The notes under the pieces were generated by a model, which was given only the letters and a program-made list of their open reading frames with translations, did no database searches and had not been told where the DNA came from. The translations under genes were made by a program, and so were the position numbers. A stretch of DNA of 64,000 nucleotides from Tautonia plasticadhaerens (GTDB lineage: Bacteria > Planctomycetota > Planctomycetia > Isosphaerales > Isosphaeraceae), in the NCBI RefSeq assembly GCF_007752535.1, contig NZ_CP036426.1, positions 7,440,001-7,504,000 on the forward strand. The letters are read 5' to 3'. Below, in pieces: positions 1 through 44,215 of this stretch (positions are counted from its first letter, which is position 1; every line of letters begins with the position of its first letter).

Positions 1-2691
1 ACCGCCGCCGTCCTCGATGCCGTCCGCAATCGCCCCCCCGCCCGCCCCTCGGCCCTCAACCCGGACGTCCCCAGGGACCTGGAGACCATCTGCCTGAAGT
101 GCCTGGAGAAGGACCCCGCCCGGCGGTACGGCTCGGCCCTGGCCCTCGCCGACGACCTGCTCGCCTGGCTCGACGGCCGGCCGATCGCCGCCCGACGGGC
201 CGGGCCGGTCGAGCGCGCCCGGCTCTGGTGCCGGAGGAGGCCGGCGGTCGCCGCCCTGGCCGCGGCGGTCGTGCTCGCGGTAGTCGTCGGGGTGGCCTCG
301 ACGATCGTCCTCCAGGCCCGGGCCAACGCCCGCCTGGAGGCCCAGTACCAGGCCACCCTCAAGGCCGAGGCCCTGGCCGACGACCGCCTCGACCGCGCCA
401 TGCAGGCCATCGAGGACTACTACACCGGCGTCTCCGCCGACGCGATCCTCGGCCAGCAGGTCCCCGAGGCCGTCCGGGAACGCCTCCTCTCCCGCCCGAT
501 CCGGTTCTACGAGGAGCTGACCCGGGAGCTGGACGCGAAGGCCGACCCCAGCCCCCGGGAGCGCCTGCTCCTGGCCGAGGGCCGCTCCGGCCTCGGACAG
601 ATCCTCCTGATCCTCGGCCGGCCGACCGAGGCGGCGGGCCAGTGCCGGGCGGCGATCGCCGTGCTCGATCGCCTGGCGGCCGACCGGCCCGACGACCCCG
701 AGGCCCGGGCCGCCCTCGCCTCGTCGGAAATCGACCTGGGAAAGATCCTCCACGCCTCCGGCGAGATCCGACTGGCCATCGACGCCTTCGGCCGGGCCGC
801 CTCCCGCCTCGAGGCCCTCCACGCCGAAGCCCCAGGGGAGGGCTCCTACCGCGACCTGCTCGCCGACGCCTGCAAGAACCTCGGCCAGATGCACCTGCTC
901 TCCGGCGACTCCCGCTCCGCCCGGACGATCGTCGGCCGGGCCGTCTCGCTCCGGGAGGCCCAAGCAGCCGAGCACCCCGACGACCCCGAGGCCCGCGCCG
1001 GCCTGGCCGACAGCCGCCTCGCCCTCGGGACCGCCCTCTACCTGGGCGGCCAGCTCGACGCGGCGAAGGCCCCCTACAGCCGGGCGATCGAGGGCTACGA
1101 GGCCCTCGCCGCCGAGTCCCCCGACGTGACCTCCTACCGGTCCGGCCTGGCCCTGGCCTGCAACAACCTCAGCGGCGCCCTCGCCCAGCTCGGCGAGTAC
1201 GAGCCGGCCCGGGCCCTGCTGGAGCGGGCCATCGCCCTCCGGGAGGCCCTGGTGGCCGAGCGCCCCGGCGTCCCCAAGTATCGCGACGACCTGGCGATGA
1301 GCCTCTACAACCTCGGCAGCGACGACTGGGGGGACGGGCGGCTCGAACCCGCCCGAGAGGCGTTCCAGCGATCGATCGACCATTACCTCGCGCTGACGGC
1401 CGAGCACCCCGACGTGCCCGAGTACCGCGCCGGCCTGGGGGACAGCTACACCGGGCTCGGCCGGGCCCTGTCCGGCCTCGGCGAGTCCGGCCCCGCCCGG
1501 GACTCCTACGAGCGGGCCGTCTCCTGCTTCGAGGCCGTCTCGGCGGCCCGGCCCGACGAGGGGGACTTCCTCCTCCGACTGGCCGGGGGCTACGCCGACC
1601 TCGCCTCGGCCTGCCAGGAGGCAGGCGAGCTCGACCGCGCCGAGGAGCTCCTCGACCGGGCCGTCCCCCTCCTGGAAGCCCTCTTCGAGGCCCACCCCGA
1701 GGTGATCGAGTACCGGGCCGGCCTGGCCGACGCCTGCCTGAACCTCGGCAACCTGCTCAACGGGCTCGGCCCGGAGGGCTCGGCCCGGGCCGTCGGGGCG
1801 TATGAGCGGGCGATCGCCCACTCCAAGGCCCTGACCGCCGCCCGGCCCGGCCTGGCGGTCGACCGCCTGGCGACCGCCTGGGGATATGGCGGCCTCGGCC
1901 TGGCGCTCCGAAGATCCGGCGACCCGACCCGCGCCCGGGACGCCTACATCGAGGCGATCTCCCGCCTCGACGCCCTCGCCGACGACCACCTCGACGTCCC
2001 CCTCTACCGGACCGAGGCGGCCAAGACGCGCAAGAACCTCGGCATCCTGCTCGGCTCCCAGGGCGACGACGCCGGCTCCCTCGACCAGTTCCGAGCCGCC
2101 CTCGCCCTCGCCGAGCCCGGCAGCCCCCTCGCCGCCGACCTCGCCGACCTGCTCGCCGTCGCCGAGGCCGCCGTCGCCATCGGCGACCGGATGGGGCCCC
2201 TCCTCCGAGGCGACGCCCTCCCCCGGGATGCCGACGAGGCCCGAGCCGTCGCCAACCTCGCGTATGACCGCGGCCTGTATGCCGCCTCGGCCCGGCTCTG
2301 GGCCGACGCCCTGGCGGCCGACCCCTCGCTGGTCGACGATCCGCACGTCCCCCACCGCTACTTCGCCGCCTGCTCCGCCGCCCTCGCCGGCACCGGCCAA
2401 GGCGAGGACGACCCTCCCCCCGACGACGCCTCGAAGGCCCTCCTCCGCTCCCAGGCCCTCTCCTGGATCCGAGCCGAACTGGACCGCCACGCCCCGCTAC
2501 TCGACGACCCCGAGGCCCGATCGGCCGTCTCCTCGACCCTCTCCTCCTGGCGATCCGACCCCGACTTCTCCGGCCTCCGCGACCCCTCGGCGATCGACGC
2601 CCTCCCCGAGGGCGAGCGCGGCTCGTGGCGCACCTTCTGGCTCGACCTCGACCGCCTCGCCGAGCGTGCCCTCTCCGGCCCGACCCCCTGA
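1..2691 (+). CDS. Ser/Thr protein kinase with C-terminal TPR array (5' end outside window)
   Basis: The reading frame is open from the first base, so the start and most of the kinase domain lie upstream of the window. The first ~55 residues carry the usual end of a planctomycete Hanks-type kinase (PRDLETICLKCLEKDPARRY, then a segment like ALADDL). A single membrane helix follows (about nt 240-320, Ala/Val-rich), then roughly 750 residues of Ala/Leu-rich helical repeats. These recur with a period near 56 residues and share a core like Y-x-x-x-L-A-x-x-x-x-N-L-G, typical of TPR units. The expected layout is a cytoplasmic kinase, one transmembrane helix, and an extracytoplasmic TPR scaffold. The substrate cannot be told from sequence. 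The kinase-TPR assignment is secure; the biological role is not known. Confidence 0.9.
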   Translation, partial: TAAVLDAVRNRPPARPSALNPDVPRDLETICLKCLEKDPARRYGSALALADDLLAWLDGRPIAARRAGPVERARLWCRRRPAVAALAAAVVLAVVVGVASTIVLQARANARLEAQYQATLKAEALADDRLDRAMQAIEDYYTGVSADAILGQQVPEAVRERLLSRPIRFYEELTRELDAKADPSPRERLLLAEGRSGLGQILLILGRPTEAAGQCRAAIAVLDRLAADRPDDPEARAALASSEIDLGKILHASGEIRLAIDAFGRAASRLEALHAEAPGEGSYRDLLADACKNLGQMHLLSGDSRSARTIVGRAVSLREAQAAEHPDDPEARAGLADSRLALGTALYLGGQLDAAKAPYSRAIEGYEALAAESPDVTSYRSGLALACNNLSGALAQLGEYEPARALLERAIALREALVAERPGVPKYRDDLAMSLYNLGSDDWGDGRLEPAREAFQRSIDHYLALTAEHPDVPEYRAGLGDSYTGLGRALSGLGESGPARDSYERAVSCFEAVSAARPDEGDFLLRLAGGYADLASACQEAGELDRAEELLDRAVPLLEALFEAHPEVIEYRAGLADACLNLGNLLNGLGPEGSARAVGAYERAIAHSKALTAARPGLAVDRLATAWGYGGLGLALRRSGDPTRARDAYIEAISRLDALADDHLDVPLYRTEAAKTRKNLGILLGSQGDDAGSLDQFRAALALAEPGSPLAADLADLLAVAEAAVAIGDRMGPLLRGDALPRDADEARAVANLAYDRGLYAASARLWADALAADPSLVDDPHVPHRYFAACSAALAGTGQGEDDPPPDDASKALLRSQALSWIRAELDRHAPLLDDPEARSAVSSTLSSWRSDPDFSGLRDPSAIDALPEGERGSWRTFWLDLDRLAERALSGPTP

Positions 2692-3118
2692 TCCCGGGCC
2701 GCGTCGAATCGCATCACTCGAACCCTCGGCGGGCTCGTAGGCGGCGGCCACGCCCGCCGATCCGCGATCGTGACGAATCGACGCAATCCGGCATGACCCG
2801 ATCCCAAGGCCCCCTCGGCCTCGATCTCCCCGAGCCGGGCCCCGGCCGCGTCCCCCTGCCCTCCTGCGCGATCTCCGCCCCGAAACGTGACTGCCGGGCC
2901 GATTCTCCACGATGATAACGGAAGGGGATCGTCCCCCGCACTCTCCGGCCGCTCTCCCCGGCCGGTCCCAGGGCTCGGCGACTCGGCAACCCGATGAGAA
3001 TGGGCGTTCGACCGACGGACGATAGGGGCATGCCGCTCCGCTTTCCTGATGAGGGATCAGCCTTGCCCCCGTCCCCCGTCCCCCATCCCCAAGGGCCCCC
3101 CGACCCGGCAGGTCGCCC

Positions 3119-3191
3119 GGCGCGAAACGAACCCGATGGCCTGGTGCGCCCGAGCGGAACGAACCCAGCCCGCTTGCCGCAACACCATTCC
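3119..3191 (+). repeat. intergenic direct repeat, copy 1
   Basis: This ~73-bp unit begins GGCGCGAAACGAACCC and contains a second GGAACGAACCCA block, a CCGCAAC block and a CATTCC block. The same order of blocks recurs at 3357-3429. Inside each copy the short word AACGAANCC appears twice about 34 bp apart. The copies are diverged but collinear. Confidence 0.6.
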
Positions 3192-3356
3192 CTGAAAGGA
3201 ATGTCGCCCGATTTTGCCCCCGCCACCGAGGCGCACCGCCCGCGTCCCGGCAGGCCGACCGCCCGACGCCGCCCGGCCGGCCTCCCACGCATCCCCCACC
3301 GGGACGGGTACGGACATGGGCCGCTCAGGAATCCCTCGACGCCTCCCCTCGCTGCC

Positions 3357-3429
3357 GGCGCAAAACGAAGCCAATCCCCGGGGAGTGCCTCGCCGAACGA
3401 ACCCAACCCGGTTTCCGCAACCCGTTCCG
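3357..3429 (+). repeat. intergenic direct repeat, copy 2
   Basis: Second copy of the unit at 3119-3191, starting GGCGCAAAACGAAGCC and continuing through CGAACGAACCCA, CCGCAAC and GTTCC blocks. The start-to-start distance is 238 bp. Role unknown; it may be a dispersed intergenic repeat of this genome. Confidence 0.6.
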
Positions 3430-6148: not shown

Positions 6149-9400
<3,252 letters not shown>

Positions 9401-9410
9401 GAAGGCCCGC

Positions 9411-10679
9411 ATGTCCGTCGATCCCGCGACCGCGACCGCGACCGCGACCGCGACCGCGACCGAGGCGACCGTCGCACCCCGGCCGATGCCCTTGGCGGCC
9501 GAGGCCCCGGCCCGGGGGGCCGGCCCGAGGCCCCGGGCGACCGGGGACCTGGCCGGGGCCCGGATCCTCGTCGTCGACGACGAGCCGATCGTCTCCCGGA
9601 TCGTCTGCCGCCACCTCCGGGAGGCCGGCCACCTCGGGCCCAGGCCGCTGGACGACCCCGGCCGGGCCCTCGACGTGATCCTCGGCGGCGAGGCCGACCT
9701 CGTCCTGCTGGACCTGATCATGCCCGGGGTCGGCGGCCTGGACATCCTCTCGGAGATGCAGGCCTCGGGTCGGGGGGAGGGGCTGCCCCCGGTGGTCGTC
9801 CTCAGCGGCGCCGTCGAGCAGCCCACCCGGCTCCGGGCCCTGGAGCTGGGGGCGGCCGACTTCCTCGCCAAGCCGGTCGACCCCAGCGAGCTGACCGTCC
9901 GGGTCCGCAACGTCCTGCTCGCCAAGGCGCACCGGGACTCGCTGCTGGAGCAGACCGCCAGCCTCGAGGCCGCCGTCCGGGAGCGGACCGAGGAGCTGGA
10001 GGCCTCCAGCCGGGACGTGATCCGCTGCCTCGCCCGGGCCGCCGAGTTCCGGGACGACGAGACCGGGAGGCACGTCCTCCGGGTCGGCCGATACACCGGG
10101 ATCATCGCCTCCCACCTCGGCCTCCCCCCGGAGGTCTCGACCCTGCTGGAGGACGCCTCCCAGCTGCACGACGTGGGCAAGATCGGCATCCCGGACGCGA
10201 TCCTCCGCAAGCCCGGCGCCCTCACCGCCGACGAGTTCGAGCTGATGCGCCGGCACGTCCAGTTCGGCCACGGGATCCTCCAGAGCGCGGCCCCCGACCG
10301 CCCGGACCCCGAGGATCTGATGAGCGTCCGCCGGCACACCGAGATCGGCGCCCAAATCCTGGACCGGGGCCACTCCACCCTGCTGAGGCTGGCCTCCCGG
10401 ATCGCCCTGTCGCACCACGAGCGCTGGGACGGCAGCGGCTACCCCCTGGGCCTCCGCGGCGAGGACATCCCGATGGAGGGCCGCATCACCGCCGTGGCCG
10501 ACGTCTTCGACGCCCTGAGCACCCGCCGCCCCTACAAGTCCGCCCTGCCGATCGACCGATGCTTCGAGATCCTCTCGGCGGGCCGGGGGTCGCACTTCGA
10601 CCCCCTCGTCCTGGACGCCTTCTTCCTCGCCCGGGAGGACATCCTCTCGGTCTACCGGGACCTGTCCGACGCCCCATGA
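9411..10679 (+). CDS. response regulator with HD-GYP phosphodiesterase domain
   Basis: A 422-residue protein, probably the output partner of the kinase 10 nt upstream. An Ala/Thr dipeptide-repeat leader (residues ~6-16) is followed by a receiver domain (~48-168; acidic pair D54-D55, phospho-acceptor D99, K152 in FLAKP) and a helical linker. The HD-GYP domain comes next: H251-D252 in LHDVGKIGIP, HHERWDGSGYP with G341-Y342-P343, and a typical AVADVFDALSTRRPYK end. HD-GYP domains hydrolyse cyclic di-GMP, so phosphorylation probably tunes that messenger. Between the HD and GYP motifs an extra stretch repeats the pattern R-R-H-x-x-x-G-x-x-I-L. GAAGG lies 6 nt before the start codon. Confidence 0.93.
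   Translation: MSVDPATATATATATATEATVAPRPMPLAAEAPARGAGPRPRATGDLAGARILVVDDEPIVSRIVCRHLREAGHLGPRPLDDPGRALDVILGGEADLVLLDLIMPGVGGLDILSEMQASGRGEGLPPVVVLSGAVEQPTRLRALELGAADFLAKPVDPSELTVRVRNVLLAKAHRDSLLEQTASLEAAVRERTEELEASSRDVIRCLARAAEFRDDETGRHVLRVGRYTGIIASHLGLPPEVSTLLEDASQLHDVGKIGIPDAILRKPGALTADEFELMRRHVQFGHGILQSAAPDRPDPEDLMSVRRHTEIGAQILDRGHSTLLRLASRIALSHHERWDGSGYPLGLRGEDIPMEGRITAVADVFDALSTRRPYKSALPIDRCFEILSAGRGSHFDPLVLDAFFLAREDILSVYRDLSDAP
9426..9461 (+). repeat. hexanucleotide tandem repeat, (GCGACC)6, in coding sequence
   Basis: Six perfect copies of GCGACC, followed by one imperfect unit, lie just after the start codon of the HD-GYP regulator. They encode alternating Ala and Thr. Because the unit is six bases, copy-number changes keep the reading frame and would only lengthen or shorten the N-terminal leader. 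Confidence 0.9.
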
Positions 10680-38577: not shown

Positions 38578-39963
38578 TCAGCGGGTTCCCGTCGAACCGG
38601 GGGCGTCCGCCAGGAGGTCGGCGATCTCCCTCATGGTGATCGCCCTGCGGTCGGGCTCCGGCTCGAGTGCCCCGCGGATGATCGGGGAGAAGGGGGCCGG
38701 CACCTGCTCGGCCGGCGCCCTGGGCCGGGTGTTCCGGATCTGCTCGAAGACCTGGAGGACGTTGCCGGCGCCGATGGCGCGATGGCCGGTGAGCAGCTCG
38801 AAGAGGATCGACCCCATCGCGAAGACGTCGGAGGCGGGCGAGGACGGCTCCCCGCGGGTCTGCTCGGGGGCCATGTACCCGGGGGTGCCGGTGATGCCGG
38901 CCGAGGAGAGATCCCGGCTGTCGATCGTCTCGAAGGGGTCGTCGGGGGCGCCGACCCGGTGGGCGAGGCCGAAGTCGACGATCTTGGCGAGGTCGCCGAC
39001 GTCGACCAGGATGTTCTGCGGCTTCAAGTCGCCGTGGACCACCCCCGCCTCGTGGGCCGCCGCCATCCCCGAGGCGACCTGCCGGGCGATCCCGACCGAC
39101 CGTCCGACCGTCAGGCCCCCCGAGGCGATCAGGTGGTCCAGGCGGGGGCCGGCCACGTACTCCATGGCGATGATCGGCAGCCCCTCGCTGTCATCCACCG
39201 CGTAGACGGTGCAGATGTTCGGGTGGTTCAGGGCCGCCGCGGCCCGGGCCTCGTCGAGCAGGGCCCGGGGCCGGGCGCCGGGCCTCGGGCGCAGCACCTT
39301 CAGGGCGACCGGGCGCTTGAGGGTCTCGTCCCGGGCCAGGAAGACGGCCGCGAAGGTCCCCGATCCCAGCTTGCGATCGATCCGGTAGTGGGCCACCACC
39401 CGGCCGGGGCCGAGGATCTTGGTCGGGTCGATCGTCGCGTCCCCCGGCCCCCAGCCCGAGGCGCACATCCCGCCGCTGGTCAGCGCCCCGAGGACCCGGA
39501 GCACCTCGTCCGCCCTCCGGCCGACCCCCATGCTGTGCACCACCTGGTACTGCACGAGCCCCGCCGGGTCGATCAGGAACAGCCCCCTCAGGGAGACCCC
39601 CGGGGGATCCTGGTAGACCCCGAAGGCCCGGCTCACCCGACCGTCCTCGTCGCTGGCCAGCGGGAAGGGGAGCCGTCCCAGTCCCCCCTCCGTCGGATCG
39701 ACCCGCATCCACTGGCGGTGCGAGTCCAGCGGGTCGCAGCTGACGCCGAGCACGCCGCAGCCGATGGCCTCGAACTCGTCGATCCGATCGGCCAGCGCCG
39801 TCAGCTCGGTCGGGCAGACCAGCGAGAAGTCCCTCGGGTAGAAGACCAGCGCCAGCCACCTCCCCCGGAAGTCGACCGACCGGGACCGCCCCTCCCCCCG
39901 ATCGGCCGACACGCTCGCCAGGTCGAACTCCGGGGCCGGGCGGCCGATCATCGGCTCGGGCAC
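38578..39963 (-). CDS. peroxiredoxin-Ser/Thr protein kinase fusion
   Basis: A 461-residue protein joining an AhpC-type 2-Cys peroxiredoxin (residues 1-~175) to a Hanks-type kinase (~190-460). The peroxiredoxin part keeps the peroxidatic cysteine C50 in DFSLVCPTEL, SCDPLDSHRQW, DEDGRVSRAFGVY, GLFLIDPAGLVQYQVV and a candidate resolving cysteine C167 in GMCASGWGPGD. The kinase part has the glycine loop KLGSGTFAAVF, K222 in VALKVL, H-G-D-L-K-P-Q-N at 310-317, D330-F-G, GTPGYMAPEQ and SDVFAMGSILFELLTG. HGD instead of HRD makes it a non-RD kinase, so activation-loop phosphorylation may be unnecessary. Both halves look catalytically complete. Coupling of peroxide state to kinase activity is inferred from the fusion. 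There is no membrane helix. Confidence 0.93.
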   Translation of the reverse strand: MPEPMIGRPAPEFDLASVSADRGEGRSRSVDFRGRWLALVFYPRDFSLVCPTELTALADRIDEFEAIGCGVLGVSCDPLDSHRQWMRVDPTEGGLGRLPFPLASDEDGRVSRAFGVYQDPPGVSLRGLFLIDPAGLVQYQVVHSMGVGRRADEVLRVLGALTSGGMCASGWGPGDATIDPTKILGPGRVVAHYRIDRKLGSGTFAAVFLARDETLKRPVALKVLRPRPGARPRALLDEARAAAALNHPNICTVYAVDDSEGLPIIAMEYVAGPRLDHLIASGGLTVGRSVGIARQVASGMAAAHEAGVVHGDLKPQNILVDVGDLAKIVDFGLAHRVGAPDDPFETIDSRDLSSAGITGTPGYMAPEQTRGEPSSPASDVFAMGSILFELLTGHRAIGAGNVLQVFEQIRNTRPRAPAEQVPAPFSPIIRGALEPEPDRRAITMREIADLLADAPGSTGTR

Positions 39964-40300: not shown

Positions 40301-43300
40301 ATGAGCAGCCTCCCCCTTGGCCGTCGCCGCGCGGGGCTCCGGCCCCGAGTTTCAAAGAGTCGTCCTTCGGTCGAGGCGCTGGAGCAGAAGCAGCTGCTGG
40401 CGACCTTCACCGTCACGAGCAACGCCAGCTCGGGGACGGGGACGCTCCGGCAGGCGATCGTCGACGCCAACGCCGCCGCCGGCGCCGACCTGATCGATTT
40501 CAACCTCCCGACCGGCCAGCGGACGATCGTCCTGGATCAGGCCGACGGGCAACTGCCGGAGATCGTCGACCCGGTGACGATCTCCGGGTCGGTGGCCGTG
40601 GGCACCGGCCTGCCGAGCATCGAACTCAGCGGCCAGAACGTCAGCGGGGACGGCCTGAGGCTCTCGGCGGGCAGTTCCGTCGTCCGGGGGCTGGCGATCA
40701 ACCGCTTCAGCGGCGCCGGCATCCGGATCAGCTCCCGGGGCGGCAACCTCGTCGAGTCGGTCCACCTGGGGACCGACGTCGCGGGCAACAACGACCTGGG
40801 CAACACGGGCCCGGGGCTGTTCATCGGCTCGGCCAACAACACCATCGGCGGCGTCGGCAACTCGGGCCGGGTGCTCAGCTCCGGCAACAGCGGCGACGGC
40901 ATCCAGTTCCTGGGGGTCGACGCCTCCGGGAACGTCGTCACGAACACTTACATCGGCATGGACCGGGCCGGTGGCCGGGCCATCCCCAATGAGGGACAGG
41001 GGCTGCTGCTCAGCGGCGCCTCGGCGAATACGATCGGCGGCACGACCACGGCCACGAGGAATGTGATCTCGGGCAACTCCCTCAGCGGCGTGGCGATGAT
41101 CCCCGGATCGAACAACAACGTGATCCAGGGCAACCTGATCGGCGTCGCCGCCGACGGGACCTCCGACCTGGGTAATCTCAATCACGGCGTCTTCATCGAC
41201 GGGGCGAACGATAACACCATCGGCGGCAACTTCGCCGGCGCCGGCAACCTCATCGCCAACAACGGCGGCACGGACTCCCAGTTCAACGGCGTCACGGTCG
41301 AGGCGGGCACGGGCAACACGATCCTCACCAACCGGATCGTCGACAACGCCGGGCTGGGGATCGACCTGGGGGGCGACGGCCAGACTCCGAATGACGATTT
41401 CGACGCCGACACCGGGCCGAACGGCCTCCAGAACTACCCCGTCCTCTTCGGCGCATTCTCCAACAGCACCGAGACGAACATCCAGGGGCTCTTGCAGAGC
41501 ACCCCGAACACCGTCTTCACCCTCCAGTTCTTCGAGAATATCGCCGCGGACGTCAGCGGCTTCGGCGAGGGCCGTCGGCTCCTAGGCGAGACGACCATCA
41601 CGACCGATGCCAACGGGCTGTTCCTGTACAGCCTCGACTTCAACCCGCCGGCCTCGGTGGGGAGCTTCATCACCGCGACCGCCACCTCTCCGACGGGCGA
41701 CACCTCCGAGTTCTCGGCCGCCGTCGAGGTCCAGGATGGGTTCTTCCGGTTCGTCGATGTCGCCCTGAGCGTGAATGACACCCCGGATCCGCTGCGAACG
41801 GGCGAGGTGCTGACGTACGACATCACGCTCGACAACCGGTTCTTCGCGGCCTCGAACGTGATCCTGTCGATCTCGCTGCCCGACTCGGTCCAATTCGACG
41901 ACACCGACCTCTCGATCCCGCCGGTCGCCAACGCCCAGGTCATCCGATCGGGCAATGACCTGACGATCATCATCCCCCAACTGGGGGACTTCTCAAGCCT
42001 CTCGATCACCCTGGACGTGGTGCCGAGCCTTCCGGAACTGCTGGTCTCCCAGTTCAGCGTGGCCAACGCCGACGACACCCAGCCCGGCAACAACTCGGCC
42101 ACGACCATCACCCAGGTCACGCTGAGCCCCGACACCTCGGTCCTCAACTTCCGGACCCGCAATTACTCCATCTCCGAGTCCGGCGACCTCGCCACGATCG
42201 AGGTGGTCCGCTCCAACAATGCGGCCGGCACTGTCAGCGTCGATTACCAGACCTTCGACGACACGGCCACCGCCGGCGACGACTACGTCGCCTCCTCCGG
42301 CACCCTCACCTTCGGCCCCAACGAGCTGACGAAGACCTTCACCATCCCGATCCTCAACAACGAGGTCGTCGACGCCAACCGGACCGTCCGCCTCGGCCTG
42401 AGCAATGCCACCGGCACGGGGATCGTCGGCGTCCCGTCCCTGGCCACGCTGACGATCTTCGACGACGACCCGGTGCCCGCCCAGCCCCAGTTCCTGCAGT
42501 TCTCCCAGGCGAGCTCGACCGTCCAGGAGAACGGCGGCGAGGCCAAGATCGTCGTCCGGCGGACCGGGGGCATCGACGGGGTCGTCTCGATCCCCTACTC
42601 CACCGCCCCCGGCTCCGCCGTCCCCGGGGAGGACTTCACCCCCGTCAGCGGCATGCTGACCTTCCTGAGCGGGGAGACGGAGAAGACGATCGTCGTCCCG
42701 GTGATCGACAATGCCGAGGTCGACGGCAACCGCGACTTCCTCGTCAGCCTCGGTCAGGGGACCGGCGCCGCGGCCGGGACGCCGAGCCAGGCCCGCATCA
42801 CGATCGTCGATGACGAGTCGCCGCCCGCCGGCTCCTTCGAGTTCTCCATGGCCGGCTACACCGTCTCCGAGGCCGACGGCCGGGCGACGATCACCGTGAC
42901 CCGGAGCGGCGGATCGGGCCCGGCCTCCGTCTCCTATGCCACCGTCCCCGGCACCGCCCGGCCGGGCGAGCGCTACCAGCCGGCCTCCGGCACCCTGGAG
43001 TTCGGCCCCGGGGAGACGGTGAAGACCTTCACCGTCGACCTGATCGACACGCCGGGCTTCGTCGGCCCCCAGACCGTGATCCTCGAGCTGACCCCCGGGG
43101 ACGGCGCCTCCCTCGGGGCCATCGGCCGGGCGATCCTGACGATCACCGACGACGAGGCCGCCCCCCAGGGAGTCTTCCAGTTCGACACCTCGTCGATCGT
43201 CGTCGACGAGGCGGCCGGGGTGGCCCGCCTGACCGTCATCCGGGCGGGCGGCGCCTTCGACGCGGCGAGCATCGGCGTGGCCACGGCCGTCGGCAACGCC

Positions 43301-44215
43301 GTCGCGGGGACCGATTACGAATCGATCGCCGTCCGGCTGACCTTCGCCCCCGGCGAGACCTCGAAGACCGTCGAGATCCCGATCCTCGACAACGATGACT
43401 TCGACGGCGACCGCGCCTTCGGCGTCTTCCTCGGCTACCCCGAGGGGAACGCGGCGATCGGCGACCCCGGCTCGGCGGTCGTGCTCATCCGGGACAACGA
43501 CCCCGACCCGATCGTGCCTTTCGTGACCGACGTCCGATCGATCGGCTTCGGCGGGTCGATCTCGACCGTGGCCATCTTCTTCAACAAGGCGATGGCCCCG
43601 GAGTCGGCCCTCTCCCCGGGCAACTACGTCGCGGTCGCCCACGGACGGGACGGGGTGCTCGGCACCGCCGACGACCGCTCGATCCCGATCGCCGGGGTGG
43701 GCCGGTCGGACGACGGGCTGGCCGTGGCCCTCTCGCTCGCCTCGGCGGTCCCCCAGGGGGAGTTCCTCACCGTGGCCGTCAACGGCCTTGCCGGCGGACT
43801 CACCGACGCCTCGGGCAGCCTGCTCGACGGCGACGGGGACGGCGTGGCCGGGGGCAACTTCTCGACGTCCCTGGTCCGGGCCTCCGGCCGCTTCAGCTAC
43901 CGGGACACCGACGGCGACCTGATCACCTACGCCGCCACCGGCGGCGGCGTGGTCGAGGTCACCCGGGGTGCCCCCGGCACCGGCGACGTCGTCCGGGTCC
44001 TCGACGCCGTCCCCGGCCGGACGGTCCTCCGGGGCCAGGTCGTCCGCCAGCGGGGCGGAGACGGGCTGGCGCTGATCCGCCGGCTCGAGGGAATCGACCC
44101 CTTCGGTCGGGTCCGATCCGCCCTCCGCACCCCTCCCTTCGTCGACCTCAGCCAGATCGCCCCGGCCGCGGTCGACGCGATCCTCGCCTCCCAGGCCCGC
44201 CGCACTCGGCGCTGA
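40301..44215 (+). CDS. large secreted beta-helix / Calx-beta repeat protein
   Basis: A 1304-residue protein. The N-terminus is Arg-rich and contains VEALEQKQLLATF, a variant of the planctomycete E-x-L-E-x-x leader. Residues ~35-370 are a right-handed parallel beta-helix (TGTLRQAIVDANAAAGADLI, many NxIGG turns). Residues ~385-480 resemble a CHU/cadherin-like stretch (STPNTVFTLQFFEN), and ~485-600 a DUF11-type segment. Four Calx-beta domains follow (~610-1070), each ending near an acidic D-D-D/E or D-N-D calcium site. A Big-like domain (~1075-1190, FFNKAMAPESALSPGNYV) and a C-terminal tail complete it. It is likely an extracellular calcium-binding structural or adhesive protein. GGAGAGGACC precedes the ATG. 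It ends at a hairpin terminator. Confidence 0.88.
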   Translation: MSSLPLGRRRAGLRPRVSKSRPSVEALEQKQLLATFTVTSNASSGTGTLRQAIVDANAAAGADLIDFNLPTGQRTIVLDQADGQLPEIVDPVTISGSVAVGTGLPSIELSGQNVSGDGLRLSAGSSVVRGLAINRFSGAGIRISSRGGNLVESVHLGTDVAGNNDLGNTGPGLFIGSANNTIGGVGNSGRVLSSGNSGDGIQFLGVDASGNVVTNTYIGMDRAGGRAIPNEGQGLLLSGASANTIGGTTTATRNVISGNSLSGVAMIPGSNNNVIQGNLIGVAADGTSDLGNLNHGVFIDGANDNTIGGNFAGAGNLIANNGGTDSQFNGVTVEAGTGNTILTNRIVDNAGLGIDLGGDGQTPNDDFDADTGPNGLQNYPVLFGAFSNSTETNIQGLLQSTPNTVFTLQFFENIAADVSGFGEGRRLLGETTITTDANGLFLYSLDFNPPASVGSFITATATSPTGDTSEFSAAVEVQDGFFRFVDVALSVNDTPDPLRTGEVLTYDITLDNRFFAASNVILSISLPDSVQFDDTDLSIPPVANAQVIRSGNDLTIIIPQLGDFSSLSITLDVVPSLPELLVSQFSVANADDTQPGNNSATTITQVTLSPDTSVLNFRTRNYSISESGDLATIEVVRSNNAAGTVSVDYQTFDDTATAGDDYVASSGTLTFGPNELTKTFTIPILNNEVVDANRTVRLGLSNATGTGIVGVPSLATLTIFDDDPVPAQPQFLQFSQASSTVQENGGEAKIVVRRTGGIDGVVSIPYSTAPGSAVPGEDFTPVSGMLTFLSGETEKTIVVPVIDNAEVDGNRDFLVSLGQGTGAAAGTPSQARITIVDDESPPAGSFEFSMAGYTVSEADGRATITVTRSGGSGPASVSYATVPGTARPGERYQPASGTLEFGPGETVKTFTVDLIDTPGFVGPQTVILELTPGDGASLGAIGRAILTITDDEAAPQGVFQFDTSSIVVDEAAGVARLTVIRAGGAFDAASIGVATAVGNAVAGTDYESIAVRLTFAPGETSKTVEIPILDNDDFDGDRAFGVFLGYPEGNAAIGDPGSAVVLIRDNDPDPIVPFVTDVRSIGFGGSISTVAIFFNKAMAPESALSPGNYVAVAHGRDGVLGTADDRSIPIAGVGRSDDGLAVALSLASAVPQGEFLTVAVNGLAGGLTDASGSLLDGDGDGVAGGNFSTSLVRASGRFSYRDTDGDLITYAATGGGVVEVTRGAPGTGDVVRVLDAVPGRTVLRGQVVRQRGGDGLALIRRLEGIDPFGRVRSALRTPPFVDLSQIAPAAVDAILASQARRTRR

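Follow-up and report, generated by a model that had tools for sequence, protein, structure and literature searches.

The window analysed here is a stretch of 64,000 nucleotides from Tautonia plasticadhaerens (contig NZ_CP036426.1, positions 7,440,001 to 7,504,000). On its minus strand lies a gene encoding an AhpC-type peroxiredoxin followed by a Ser/Thr kinase in one polypeptide. The original prediction of a single uninterrupted frame at 38578-39963 was confirmed with correct coordinates, and the residue numbers given with it (C50 in VCPTEL, C167, K222, HGDLKPQN at 310-317 and D330-F-G) all proved right. The GTG start is supported by an equivalent start residue in homologues. The neighbouring genes in the window code for a Calx-beta protein, a malate/lactate dehydrogenase and a protein resembling PhzF; a 1304-amino-acid protein with four Calx-beta stretches is encoded on the plus strand at 40301-44215, divergently from the fusion gene. 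The features of the gene are as follows.

38578..39963, minus strand: peroxiredoxin-Ser/Thr kinase fusion gene, 461 amino acids, GTG start at 39963, TGA stop ending at 38578
39418..39951, minus strand: AhpC/Prx1-type 2-Cys peroxiredoxin domain, residues 5-182 (Pfam PF00578, PDB match, fold match)
39814..39816, minus strand: peroxidatic Cys C50, codon TGC; TGA (selenocysteine, Sec) at the equivalent position in L044 and L045
39463..39465, minus strand: resolving Cys C167, kept in 45 of 45 fusions
39397..39462, minus strand: tight junction of near-fixed length, residues 168-189, at the site of the C-terminal FF/YF-type tail of the nearest standalone peroxiredoxins
38614..39396, minus strand: PknB-like Ser/Thr kinase domain, residues 190-450 (Pfam PF00069, PknB fold match)
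39298..39300, minus strand: catalytic Lys K222 (VALK), 45 of 45
39013..39036, minus strand: catalytic loop HGDLKPQN, residues 310-317, non-RD; HGD in 45 of 45 fusions
38968..38976, minus strand: DFG motif, residues 330-332; Asp in 45 of 45, whole DFG in 44 of 45
38926..38928, minus strand: activation-loop Thr T346, 44 of 45; candidate autophosphorylation or docking site

Two catalytic halves and their junction

The predicted order of an AhpC-type peroxiredoxin and then a complete kinase is borne out by Pfam, in which AhpC-TSA (PF00578) covers residues 6-139 (E 6e-32) and Pkinase (PF00069) covers residues 193-441 (E 1e-41). All Pfam matches in the protein are of AhpC-TSA/Redoxin or kinase type, with no other input domain. 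In a sequence search of solved structures, residues 4-182 match plant and human 2-Cys peroxiredoxins (BAS1, E 2e-40) and residues 186-450 match PknB.

The peroxiredoxin half has P43, S47, C50 and R126, the active-site residues of typical 2-Cys peroxiredoxins, and in PDB alignments C167 falls on their resolving-Cys segment. With these enzymes (AhpC/Prx1; PDB 5zte, 6j13, 4mh2) the fusions share the fold, the PxxxS/TxxC centre, the active-site Arg, a resolving Cys in the C-terminal segment and, in many cases, a GGLG-like loop. Unlike them, the fusions have Ser in place of Thr in the peroxidatic motif (44/45), lack the FF/YF-type C-terminal tail and carry a kinase. The peroxiredoxin half scores 105.4 bits against the AhpC equivalog TIGR03137, far below its cut-off of 272. 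The top peroxiredoxin model in NCBIfam is PrxU (NF040737), at 136.7 bits against a cut-off of 270. PrxU is characterised by Sec at the peroxidatic position, and two fusion members resemble it in having a Sec codon there, but the window protein differs from PrxU in its Cys codon (TGC), in the added kinase and in scoring below the cut-off.

The kinase half contains the Hanks-type set of Gly loop, Lys/Glu pair, HxDxKxxN, DFG and APE/SPE. It shares the kinase fold and catalytic residues with PknB-like bacterial kinases and differs from them in being non-RD (HGD), in lacking PASTA repeats and in having a redox domain at its N-terminal side. The protein ends 11 residues after the kinase domain, and the model NF033483 for PASTA kinases, which have a membrane segment besides their PASTA repeats, gives 194.6 bits against a threshold of 450. 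The Arg that precedes the catalytic Asp in RD kinases is replaced by Gly in all 45 fusions, whereas HRD is found in 15/15 of the nearest unfused kinases compared, a count that speaks for those 15 only, as they were picked by similarity. This difference suggests changed regulation. The original prediction had remarked that non-RD kinases often do not need loop phosphorylation. The non-RD assignment stands, but the remark has become uncertain because 44 of the 45 fusions keep T346; the conservation of this residue in an activation loop that is otherwise hypervariable, ranging from 16 to 76 residues between the DFG Asp and the Pro of APE, suggests that ordinary activation-loop phosphorylation may still be in operation. 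Kinase residue C251 was considered as a relay target and is not favoured: it is present in at least 90% of a 39-sequence alignment, yet missing in several members.

Some individual genes deviate from the common plan. One fusion (L055 in G219, 2053-3363, minus strand) lacks the stretch of the activation loop from DFG to T346 (IMDYTGFGSLVGTP), possibly an inactive kinase or an assembly gap. Another (L059 in G155, 7557-9041, minus strand) has TAG at codon 230, just past the catalytic Lys region, and is a probable recent pseudogene or sequencing error. A third (L110 in G422, 7951-10467) encodes a peroxiredoxin-kinase-kinase protein of 839 amino acids, in which the second kinase is of RD type (HRDVKP).

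A structure model based on 39 fusions as alignment has a mean pLDDT of 86 and a pTM of 0.62. Both halves are modelled as standard folds: the peroxiredoxin half as the thioredoxin-like peroxiredoxin fold (Z 27.7 against Prx3, rmsd 1.6 over 163 residues) and the kinase half as PknB (Z 30.4, rmsd 2.1 over 251 residues). Confidence is low in the activation loop and falls below pLDDT 50 at residues 166-176, which include C167 and the junction; because of this and the pTM value, no contact of C50 or C167 with the kinase can be read from the monomer model.

The spacing between the halves is almost fixed. The peroxidatic and resolving positions are 117 residues apart in 45/45 fusions, and the distance from the resolving Cys to the Gly loop is 33 residues in 41/45 and 34 in 4/45, so the length of the tether is constrained. 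In the standalone peroxiredoxins nearest the fused clade (L114, L116, L120), TIKP or SIDP is followed by an FF/YF-type tail, and the kinase of the fusion begins where this tail would begin.

Distribution and origin of the fusion

The original prediction called for a search of planctomycete proteomes for the same domain order, and 45 homologous fusions were found within the Planctomycetota, spread over 25 genera in 9 families. With the same junction in 45 genomes and nothing found in its favour, an assembly error or frameshift that joined two separate genes can be regarded as already refuted. All four genomes available for the genus have a full-length fusion, as do 17/45 of the family and order and 42/397 of the class, and three more members lie outside the class (G422, G439, G499). 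The search beyond Planctomycetota was one pattern scan of genome contigs, and a search of plasmids gave single-domain matches and no fusion. In the window's own genome (9.4 Mb, 6 contigs) there is one fusion, and no second, among 115 matches, the rest being mainly kinases with a few separate peroxiredoxins. Two of its kinase genes (G000:C4:43858-44877 and C4:73988-75007) have identical match scores, apparently from a recent duplication.

All 45 fusions retain the peroxidatic position (43 Cys, 2 TGA), the resolving Cys and R126 in the first half, and the Gly-loop glycines, K222, E238, HGD and D330 in the second. Values of dN/dS are 0.04-0.25 in both halves (Nei-Gojobori, ten pairs), indicating similar purifying selection on the two. 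In both domain trees all fused members fall on one side of a branch (SH-aLRT 99 for the peroxiredoxin and 100 for the kinase), and their groupings broadly match between the trees. This is consistent with one ancestral fusion, at the level of support that quick trees with modest outgroups provide. The patchy distribution points to frequent loss or transfer, and the fusion must be dispensable because many relatives live without it (28/45 family genomes).

In a comparison of gene neighbourhoods, no neighbour gene is conserved across families, and thus the protein looks self-contained, with no adjacent partner implied. Recurrent neighbours, which include sulfatases and type-IV-pilin-like, paralogue-rich families, vary in distance and strand and were rejected as conserved partners.

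Peroxidatic TGA codons and probable selenocysteine

In two fusion genes, L044 (G332) and L045 (G308), the sole premature in-frame stop is a TGA lying exactly at the peroxidatic codon (FSLV-TGA-PTEL). Both genomes have tRNA-Sec (anticodon tca) and SelB, and peroxiredoxins with Sec form an established family of selenoproteins (PMC13188914). The two genes thus very probably encode selenocysteine peroxiredoxin kinases. Sequencing error or nonsense mutation is a very unlikely origin of these codons. Such an origin would agree with the draft state of both genomes (86% and 79% complete), with the fact that SelB alone is common among the fusion genomes (21/45, among them the genome of the window, whose fusion has TGC at this codon), and with a SECIS-like stem-loop past the TGA that is significant in one of the two (z -3.4 in L045, -0.3 in L044); but it would have to place a lone premature stop, in two genera, at the peroxidatic codon among about 455, each time in a genome equipped with both tRNA-Sec and SelB. 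Sec at this position makes sense only if the residue does redox chemistry, and its coding in two members is therefore good sequence evidence for such chemistry in the fusion family.

TGA codons in own-genome standalone peroxiredoxins were rejected as Sec codons, being ordinary terminal or upstream stops. A standalone AhpC-type peroxiredoxin of G422 (L112), whose genome has SelB, has TGA at the peroxidatic codon (FTFV-TGA-ATEF) and is a probable selenoprotein. The window's genome has tRNA-Sec and SelB (G000:C1:6016686-6016781 and C1:2123100-2124998) and probably decodes selenocysteine, though its fusion uses Cys. The open literature searched yielded no example of a kinase-linked Sec peroxiredoxin.

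Proposed peroxide gating of the kinase and comparison with known systems

How is a peroxide signal transferred from a peroxiredoxin to a kinase? This is still an open question because the partners are usually separate proteins and their contacts transient. We favour, with reasonable though far from full confidence, the explanation that the fusion is a soluble one-protein peroxide sensor kinase. An outline of the proposed process is as follows: C50, or Sec in some relatives, would react with peroxide, and the resulting sulfenic acid would be resolved by C167, probably that of a partner subunit as in other typical 2-Cys peroxiredoxins. Resolution would need local unfolding of the C-terminal segment bearing C167. 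This unfolding, with an accompanying decamer-dimer change, would shift the kinase domains relative to their former place and change how active they are or how they reach substrates, and thioredoxin-type reduction would reset the system. A change of 2-Cys peroxiredoxins from decamer to disulfide dimer is described in PMC8230665. The movement should reach the kinase because the latter starts about 25 residues past C167, at the site of the standalone tail. The first steps, oxidation of C50 and resolution by C167, follow established 2-Cys peroxiredoxin chemistry, and the coupling goes beyond it; for the fusion protein itself we infer the disulfide chemistry, the oligomeric state, the coupling and its direction, activation of the kinase on oxidation being a guess.

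The original prediction of a direct peroxide-to-phosphorylation link is upheld in part, by the anatomy, both catalytic centres and wide conservation, and its coupling, direction and substrates are still conjectural. It gains strength from the Sec codons at the peroxidatic position of two members and from HGD in 45/45 fusions as against HRD in 15/15 unfused kinases. Whether the attached peroxiredoxin acts in cis as the switch of these planctomycete kinases, with Sec as the residue that meets peroxide in some members, so as to constitute a selenium-dependent peroxide receptor kinase, seems to us evenly balanced.

Signalling in the reverse direction is an unlikely alternative: the kinase, answering to some other cue, might autophosphorylate the peroxiredoxin domain or tail and tune its peroxidase activity, hyperoxidation or oligomeric state. 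Both active sites are equally conserved, the fusion is the sole AhpC-type match found in 7/21 fusion genomes, and modulation of Prx2 activity by phosphorylation is reported in PMC7912311. Against this, no further input domain exists to cue the kinase, which is non-RD, and the peroxiredoxin is the sole obvious sensor. Where it is the only AhpC-type match, the fusion could also be mainly a peroxidase, which would speak against the sensor kinase. The conserved T346 and the dispensability of the fusion weigh on the same side.

It is also improbable that the two halves act independently, the peroxiredoxin oligomerising, protecting or detoxifying locally and clustering the kinases without redox switching. 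The 2-Cys peroxiredoxins form rings, and clustering can activate PknB-like kinases. A pure scaffold, however, would need neither peroxidatic and resolving positions in 45/45 members nor Sec at the former, and a loose bifunctional fusion would need no fixed tether length.

Returning to the sensor kinase, we regard the fusion, from its sequence, as a strong candidate for a one-protein switch from peroxide to phosphorylation. With peroxiredoxin and kinase covalently joined at a fixed spacing, the question of signal transfer is open to direct study in a single purified protein, and the Sec-coding members offer an apparently canonical kinase with a selenium input residue. The original remark that no characterised example was known to its author agrees with the open literature searched, in which we found no description of a peroxiredoxin joined to a canonical Ser/Thr kinase, Sec-coding members included. 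The text of a survey of planctomycete Ser/Thr kinase domains (PMC11032199) does not contain AhpC, redoxin or TSA; its supplementary table may list the architecture, which is probably visible in domain databases.

Redox domain-kinase fusions and kinase-fold selenoproteins are already known, however. Mycobacterium PknG (rubredoxin-kinase-TPR) likewise has a redox-responsive domain N-terminal to a Ser/Thr kinase, and PMC6069109 cites an enhancement of its activity by oxidation of the rubredoxin domain. PknG relies on a metal-binding rubredoxin and has TPR, neither of which Pfam finds in the window protein, whereas the fusion has a thiol or selenol peroxidase domain that is itself expected to react with peroxide. 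SELO proteins combine a kinase fold with Sec or Cys, and a redox link has been proposed for them (PMC3281104); their Sec lies close to the C-terminus and they do not conserve the Asp of HRD, whereas the Sec of the fusions is in a separate peroxiredoxin domain and the kinase is canonical, the window protein having the catalytic Asp and lacking the C-terminal Cxx[CU] motif. Another precedent is yeast Tsa1-PKA, in which a peroxiredoxin modulates a kinase upon H2O2 and oxidation of PKA depends on Tsa1 (PMC7392609): two proteins there, one chain in the fusion.
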